Source: Chitinophagaceae bacterium
GTDB lineage: Bacteria > Bacteroidota > Bacteroidia > Chitinophagales > Chitinophagaceae
Assembly: GCA_947455215.1 (NCBI GenBank)
Contig: CANGNA010000010.1
Location: 1 to 64,000, forward strand
Reading direction: 5' to 3'
Length of the DNA stretch: 64,000 nt
Under the pieces are notes generated by a model. The model saw only the letters and a program-made list of their open reading frames with translations. It was not told where the DNA came from and searched no databases. Shown piece after piece: positions 18,752-19,388 of the stretch; the first letter of the stretch is position 1; each line of letters opens with the position of its first letter. Made by a program: the position numbers and the translations under genes.

Positions 18752-18934
18752 TTAGGCAGTTGCCTTCGCTTTATGTAGATATTTGTCAGCTTGTTTTACC
18801 AGGTCATCTGCTTTTTTCTTCAGCTTCCGGCCTTTCGTTTCGGTATCACTTTTTACCTTCAGAAAGGTGTTCTCCAGCAATAGCCCCGCTATCACTCCGG
18901 CGGCTGCATATGTCAATAGGCGTGTCATTGTCAT
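18752..18934 (-). CDS. Small YtxH-like membrane protein
   Basis: This 60-residue protein has one N-terminal membrane helix (LLTYAAAGVIAGLLLENTFL) followed by a lysine-rich amphipathic helix (KKADDLVKQADKYLHKAKA). This is the layout of YtxH-type proteins, which are envelope-associated and often stress-induced; the function is unknown. A hairpin with stem AACCGC/GCGGTT (18724-18747) lies just past the stop codon. A second YtxH-like gene is at 50942-51136. Confidence 0.6.
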   Translation of the reverse strand: MTMTRLLTYAAAGVIAGLLLENTFLKVKSDTETKGRKLKKKADDLVKQADKYLHKAKATA

Positions 18935-19025: not shown

Positions 19026-19388
19026 ATGTTCGAAAATAAACGGCAGGCAGTAGCGCCGGTCAGCGTATTCTACAGCCGCATATTACACAGCTTCGCTATC
19101 GGTCTGCTCATCTTGTTAATTTGCCTGGTCATCGGCATATTGGGTTATCACTACCTGGCTGATATCCCCTGGATAGACGCCATACACAATGCCTCCATGA
19201 TCCTCAGCGGCATGGGGCCTGTAGCAGAAGTAAAAGGCACCGGAGGCAAATTATTCTCCTCAGCCTATGCTTTGTTTAGTGGGGTGGTGTTCATTACCAA
19301 TATCGGTATTATCCTGGCACCTGCCGCGCATCGCTTCTTTCACAAATTACACGTGGAAGAAGATGACGATGATGATCAGGGTAAATAA
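19026..19388 (+). CDS. Two-helix membrane protein resembling a potassium-channel pore module
   Basis: The 120-residue protein has a first membrane helix (FAIGLLILLICLVIGILGYH, residues about 24-43). It is followed by a re-entrant-like segment (PWIDAIHNASMILSGMGPVA) and a second helix (LFSSAYALFSGVVFITNIGI), and ends in an acidic EEDDDDDQ tail. The spacing copies the Ion_trans_2 pore (helix, pore helix, filter, helix), including the GKLFSSAYALFSG pattern after the filter. The filter itself, normally TxGYGD, reads SGMGPV. It may be a non-selective or non-conducting relative, or an unrelated small membrane protein. There are no obvious partner genes. Confidence 0.55.
   Translation: MFENKRQAVAPVSVFYSRILHSFAIGLLILLICLVIGILGYHYLADIPWIDAIHNASMILSGMGPVAEVKGTGGKLFSSAYALFSGVVFITNIGIILAPAAHRFFHKLHVEEDDDDDQGK

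Follow-up and report, generated by a model that had tools for sequence, protein, structure and literature searches.

The gene described in Table 1 encodes a member of a family, hereafter named the GMGP family after its most conserved motif, which lies within the 2TM P-loop superfamily and carries a filter of its own; homology and fold are well supported, and a pore function is probable. Judging from sequence comparison and a structural model, we favour, with moderate confidence, the reading that the gene product is a stand-alone, minimal (about 115-aa) tetrameric 2TM/P-loop pore with poor selectivity for cations, and it probably represents a stand-alone kind of channel not yet described. The gene lies in the window, the 64,000-nucleotide stretch of Chitinophagaceae DNA that was analysed as a whole.

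Table 1. The GMGP gene and its parts, in positions of the window
Feature	Positions	Strand	Basis
Whole gene, minimal 2TM/P-loop protein (GMGP family), 120 aa	19026..19388	+	ORF, homologues, purifying selection
N-terminal part with the outer helix (model helix at residues 12-44)	19059..19157	+	model and alignment
Pore helix, residues 49-60, WIDAIHNASMIL	19170..19205	+	model and alignment
Replaced selectivity filter SGMGPV, residues 61-66	19206..19223	+	alignments, tree
Inner helix (model helix at residues 72-117)	19239..19376	+	AlphaFold2 model, alignment
HRFFHKLH (residues 102-109) with the conserved HRxxHxxH, at the inner-helix end	19329..19352	+	153-row alignment

The reading frame starts with ATG and stops with TAA, and it is the single GMGP copy in a 4.2-Mb assembly that is 100% complete (G000). 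Comparison with seven relatives gave pS values of 0.70–0.87 and pN values of 0.13–0.28 (differences per site), indicating purifying selection. R18, G37, G40 and Y41 are conserved in the outer-helix part. The inner helix is followed by a short acidic tail and nothing else, and the Kir cytosolic domain is absent from the 120-aa protein; the HRxxHxxH end of the inner helix is presumed to face the cytosol. The flanking genes encode Tex (on the opposite strand), a 4HBT thioesterase and RecQ, and a window-local operon with these neighbours was rejected because the neighbours differ in relatives. Just upstream, an ORF on the minus strand (18752-18934) encodes a short protein that has a single hydrophobic segment and a tail rich in lysine and resembles the YtxH type.

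The preliminary description of this DNA had proposed a K+-channel-like fold of two helices and a pore helix, and this proposal is supported by AlphaFold2, Foldseek, VIA-align, the profile searches and hhalign. The AlphaFold2 monomer, built from 81 sequences, reached a mean pLDDT of 81.8 and a pTM of 0.66; in this single chain the outer helix, pore helix, re-entrant loop and inner helix follow one another with the helix limits of Table 1, and the model supports a 2TM/P-loop fold with a pore helix. Foldseek against the PDB returned 640 matches at E ≤ 10 and none at E ≤ 0.001, and the best 50 of the 640 were all NaK, its mutants or its chimeras, with a probability of 1.00 and a query TM of about 0.46–0.54. 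VIA-align placed MthK at the top with Z 12.0 (rmsd 3.3, 81 residues aligned), a value in the range under about 13 where Z may reflect a common helical arrangement, and among the 50 matches listed it gave solely MthK, NaK-type and K2P1 channels. The preliminary description would have been refuted by the absence of any structural match to the channel fold; with the monomer model such matches were obtained. The elements had been listed in a loose order, SGMGPV in fact preceding GKLFSSAYALFSG (residues 74-86, C-terminal to the filter), and the described spacing of a 2TM/P-loop protein stands.

At the sequence level, the window protein alone gave no significant match among PDB sequences, NaK appearing at E 0.41 below an unrelated match at 0.19, and the narrow profile A1 was likewise not significant (E 0.056). 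A diverse profile of 17 members recovered CNG-mimicking NaK mutants at E 8.7e-07 and wild-type NaK at E 8.7e-05, with MthK and NaKTs at E 0.14 or worse. Canonical pores from the same phylum were collected from 42 searched loci, of which L152, L157 and L161 yielded none (L144, the same gene as L017, was omitted). The family profile matched 8 of the resulting 39 pores at E < 0.01, with a best value of 3.4e-11, left 31 unmatched, and matched none of the 39 reversed or 780 shuffled pores; five of the eight matched pores had entered the set via a family profile and three (L132, L133, L134) via Pfam Ion_trans_2. A pairwise hhalign comparison of family and canonical pores, not database-corrected, gave a probability of 96.8 over 87 columns. 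The gathering cut-off of Pfam PF07885 (Ion_trans_2) was missed (best 14.1 bits vs 22.5), and 15 members gave three weak Ion_trans_2 matches at E 0.051 or worse. The profile and profile–profile results with their controls indicate sequence homology to the 2TM P-loop superfamily.

The joint alignment with the 39 canonical pores agrees with the preliminary description that the canonical filter is absent and that SGMGPV stands in its place, facing T-T-[VI]-G-[YF]-G. G62 faces threonine in 36 of 39 pores, M63 valine or isoleucine in 39, G64 glycine in 39, P65 tyrosine or phenylalanine in 39, and V66 glycine in 35; at the column of N55 the canonical pores have F, W, M or Y. The L60–K75 loop spans 15 residues in 141/153 family rows vs 16 in 39/39 canonical pores, and the 12 family rows with 16 residues read ...GPVKTEGLS...GK or nearly so. 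Based on these aligned columns and loop lengths, three places that form K+ sites are altered and one later residue has been lost. Few motifs in membrane biology are as conserved as the K+ filter. A canonical K+ channel was rejected as a reading of the family, the T-x-G-[YF]-G filter being missing in 153/153 rows, with G-M-G-P-V at the aligned places.

Residues were counted over 153 distinct family rows, from which L016-L018 and duplicates of the window gene were excluded; the fragments L176, L178 and L187 are included here and absent from the 129-row count. Some rows start at an arbitrary residue, and a gene present in two collections may count twice if its starts differ. The conservation of SGMGP, which the preliminary description had left to a family alignment, is evident: residues 62-65 read GMGP in 145 rows, the other eight filters being GMGL, GLGI, GEGP, GQPV, GICP, GLGL, GVGP and VMGA. 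By column, G62 is kept in 152 rows, M63 in 147, G64 in 151, P65 in 148 and V66 in 139; in the pore helix N55 is kept in 142, M58 in 149 and L60 in 153, and in the inner helix F77 in 153, G86 in 152 and P99 in 153. The histidine motif is nearly as constant (H102 147, R103 146, H106 146, H109 132), HRxxH occurring in 144 rows, HRxxHxxH in 128, and GMGP together with HRxxH in 137. The nine rows lacking HRxxH (L173, L174, L175, L129, L130, L258, L264, L265 and L271) imply that this motif cannot be essential family-wide. NaK and CNG channels carry acidic residues in or right after the filter. In the family, neither the filter nor the residues directly after it showed a conserved acidic position; E68 is common (90 of 129 rows) but not constant across the family. 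The drifted filters of L177, L261, L275 and L178 (GLGI, GLGL, GICP and VMGA) occur with HRxxH wherever it is covered, and these natural variants are usable for mutational comparison.

A tree of 79 rows, comprising 40 of the 129 family rows and 39 canonical pores, placed the GMGP rows on one side of a single branch with support 100/100, and the split persisted when positions 55-68 were removed (SH-aLRT 99, quick method). The tree neighbours of the family are the RCK-type channels L016, L017, L134 and L171 (branch 97/83). The confinement of GMGP to one side of a branch, even without the filter columns, suggests that the filter was replaced rather than decayed. The GMGP filter may thus have a single origin, with which the tree is compatible short of proof, given that its columns are few, that the GMGP stem is long (2.87) and that the midpoint root is assumed.

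Among 39 related genomes 17 matched, 15 of them with family-type homologues and two with RCK K+ channels of ~350 aa only. Across a phylum sample of 395 genomes, 74 matched at E ≤ 0.001 and 44 were family-type at E < 1e-15; the remaining 30 matches were weak (2.4e-8 or worse) and mostly RCK-type frames of 330-400 aa, three of the short ones being canonical channels with TTIGYGD or STIGFTE. Of 557 candidate stretches from a species-level collection of genomes, 519 encode relatives, the best 80 of which were taken into the analysis. Close relatives come from Chitinophagaceae-type MAGs and from records of Taibaiella, Terrimonas and Flavipsychrobacter. Matches at E < 1e-20 were found in only 6 of 299 genomes from another family of the window's class and in 21 of 194 from another order of that class. 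Beyond the phylum, at least four plasmid-collection records carry the gene (Thioclava, Gloeothece and two Proteus), the Gloeothece copy having the filter SGMGPI. The Thioclava plasmid copy (L129 2465-3786) has GGEGPV, with a glutamate in the filter, and overlaps a mechanosensitive-channel gene by 4 bases. The two Proteus mirabilis records (L131 1940-3340) hold a divergent member with the filter LSGQPVEP, in a stretch without listed annotation and between two UspA-type genes (Pfam Usp confirmed for one); searching E. coli genomes with the Proteus DNA gave no match. Pfam and NCBIfam hold no model for the family, the window protein having no NCBIfam match and six further members none above cut-off; neither the window protein nor the L278 protein matched a PHROG, and a published description of the GMGP family was not found in the open-licence PMC literature.

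Gene neighbourhoods vary and consist mostly of unrelated housekeeping genes (8 of 111 loci were left out of this survey, the gene having been missed by a simple ORF caller). RND, membrane-fusion, P-type ATPase or multicopper-oxidase genes occur in five of the 29 neighbourhoods that lie beyond the window's order-level control (L188, L189, L190, L258 and L261; Pfam for three), against 0 of 80 control loci. At L188 a CusB/HlyD-type gene is followed by the GMGP gene and then by PP-binding and P-type ATPase genes; at L189 the GMGP gene overlaps a multicopper oxidase gene, followed by Usp; at L190 bestrophin and P-type ATPase genes follow, an order repeated at L258 with MgtC; and at L261 the sole metal-type gene, for a P-type ATPase, lies at a distance of over 2.5 kb. 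The GMGP genes of L188, L189, L190 and L258 mostly have the filter TGMGP and lack HRxxH. With metal-resistance genes at so few loci and the ATPase of L261 distant, a general metal function of the family was rejected. In other neighbourhoods, one copy overlaps a VIT1-family transporter gene (L259, 5142-6195), and the copies of L262 and L274 abut a DUF1003 gene.

Two IMG/VR phage contigs also carry the gene (L279 2500-2859 and L280 5523-5890), both copies lying near terminase. The intact one encodes 119 aa and is also near thymidylate synthase and portal genes, and the other is split across two frames. Among 80 contigs sharing a neighbouring phage gene the GMGP gene occurs in only 2, and neither a protein search of phage records nor a viral scan with the window protein gave a match. 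A role in anti-phage defence was rejected, with no PADLOC match for five members.

In the mechanism proposed here, four copies would assemble into a homotetrameric pore with both ends cytosolic, and the loop S/G/T-G-M-G-P-V after the pore helix would line its narrow part. Since the S4 threonine is exchanged for glycine, the tyrosine for proline and the second glycine for valine in a shorter loop, the four K+ sites could not form as they do in K+ channels, and the pore would therefore pass monovalent cations, perhaps also Ca2+, and discriminate little among them, like the pores of NaK, CNG and NaKTs. In the accessible text of a study on KcsA, T75G removed site S4 and lowered the conductance, and changes of T75 and G77 lowered the selectivity in simulation (PMC11251424). 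The inner gate would be the site of the invariant proline and of the subsequent HRxxHxxH; as a speculation, the histidines at the end of the inner helix might control the opening and closing of the bundle crossing there, by proton sensing or by binding of a divalent metal. The most economical reading is a cation pore of poor selectivity. Rather unlikely is the bolder proposal of a widespread, undescribed class of minimal homotetrameric pores whose K+ filter gave way once to GMGP, which are gated from the cytosol by protons or a transition metal at a ring of HRxxHxxH, serve alone in bacteria that lack other P-loop channels, and have entered heavy-metal efflux clusters in some lineages as well as large phages.

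Whether the protein acts alone was addressed in 57 GMGP carriers, namely 15 near relatives (G000 counted among them) and 42 genomes from the phylum sample (G347 of the 44 left out). An Ion_trans_2 match is absent from 15 of the 57, that is, from 2 of the 15 near relatives (G020, G038) and 13 of the 42 others, and the same 15 also lack IRK and Ion_trans matches. These genomes are 94-100% complete and belong to 10 genera, with six in one genus; two of them, G131 and G292, have copies with the filters VMGA and GMGL, respectively. Of 14 control genomes, 11 matched Ion_trans_2 and 8 Ion_trans; the IRK control is weak, with one of the 14 matched and that below the cut-off. Since the 15 genomes have none of the three, the GMGP protein most likely works by itself, as far as gene content can tell. 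The preliminary description had also suggested a regulatory subunit, and the same genomes disfavour that idea. An auxiliary or non-conducting subunit, associating with canonical K+ channels to modify their conductance, would fit the shared superfamily and the Ion_trans_2 channels present in 42 of the 57 carriers (three in the window's own genome), but it would be left without any such partner in the other 15, and a silent subunit would hardly have its filter loop as the best-conserved part; we regard it as quite improbable.

We doubt that a new filter chemistry keeps the pore selective for a single ion, be it K+, Ca2+, H+ or a transition metal. The near-invariant GMGP is tighter than would be expected of a merely leaky hole, one subclade lies in the heavy-metal efflux clusters described above, and the further copy that follows a VIT1 iron/manganese transporter gene points the same way; however, the filter itself offers no acidic or histidine ligand, and the metal contexts concern few loci, four of the five coming from rows without HRxxH. 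Least probable, at a very low level, is a mere look-alike, whose channel resemblance would come from decay or chance in a two-helix protein or from membership of a different family, for example the SieB-like exclusion proteins. Weak Pfam SieB matches in 4 of 15 members (best E 0.14), similar ones to several other membrane families and the insignificant PDB search with the window protein alone would suit it, but the evidence from profiles, profile–profile comparison and fold, controlled with shuffled and reversed sequences, speaks against it, as do strong conservation and purifying selection.

The poorly selective cation pore that we favour can be compared with several known channels. NaK/CNG-type pores were the best PDB sequence and Foldseek matches of the family among the matches listed. 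CNG filter loops are short, and it fits this background that CNG-mimicking NaK mutants (96 residues vs 97 in the NaK2K type) align without a gap through the family's shortened, CNG-like loop. The TVG[D/E] of NaK and CNG channels is missing, however, GMG being followed by P (148/153), and the cytosolic nucleotide-binding domain of the CNG type is absent. The RCK-type K+ channels L016, L017 and L134 from Bacteroidota-type genomes, the nearest canonical group on the tree, align with the family at the WI[DE]A start of the pore helix and the GxxF start of the inner helix, but keep a T-V-G-F-x or TTIGYH filter and a cytosolic domain, both of which the family lacks. Kcv-type viral K+ channels keep the K+ filter. 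As far as the accessible text on them goes, they resemble the family as minimal, pore-only proteins, with a GMGP copy also on phage contigs, whereas the GMGP family has bacterial hosts. NirBac channels, KirBac homologues with replaced filters, are tetrameric, non-selective bacterial P-loop channels and in this replacement resemble the family; in the accessible text they are few in known members, vary in their loops and carry a cytosolic domain of the Kir type (PMC4607889), whereas the GMGP proteins lack any additional domain and share a single near-invariant motif in many genera. NaKTs of Tsukamurella paurometabola is a Ca2+-activated, non-selective 2TM cation channel with the filter LPMGNGPLSP (PDB 5cbf, 5cbg and 5cbh), described, again in accessible text (PMC5052707), with features that the family shares, namely a 2TM pore with Met-Gly at the places of V76-G77 and a Gly-Pro after them. 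It differs in the proline at the place of T75, where the family has glycine (152/153), and in its filter, which is not shortened; the P-M-G-N-G-P arrangement with a Ca2+ site at the first proline is not found in the family, and its sequence matched the family profile weakly (E 0.19).

An unannotated gene of many genomes thereby gains a testable function. The nearest published filter is that of NaKTs, for which its authors, as far as the accessible text goes, found no other channel with a similar filter (PMC5052707). With proteins of about 115 residues in which the K+ filter has been exchanged for a near-invariant motif, the large natural GMGP family would offer a ready test case for the way in which the filter sequence determines selectivity.
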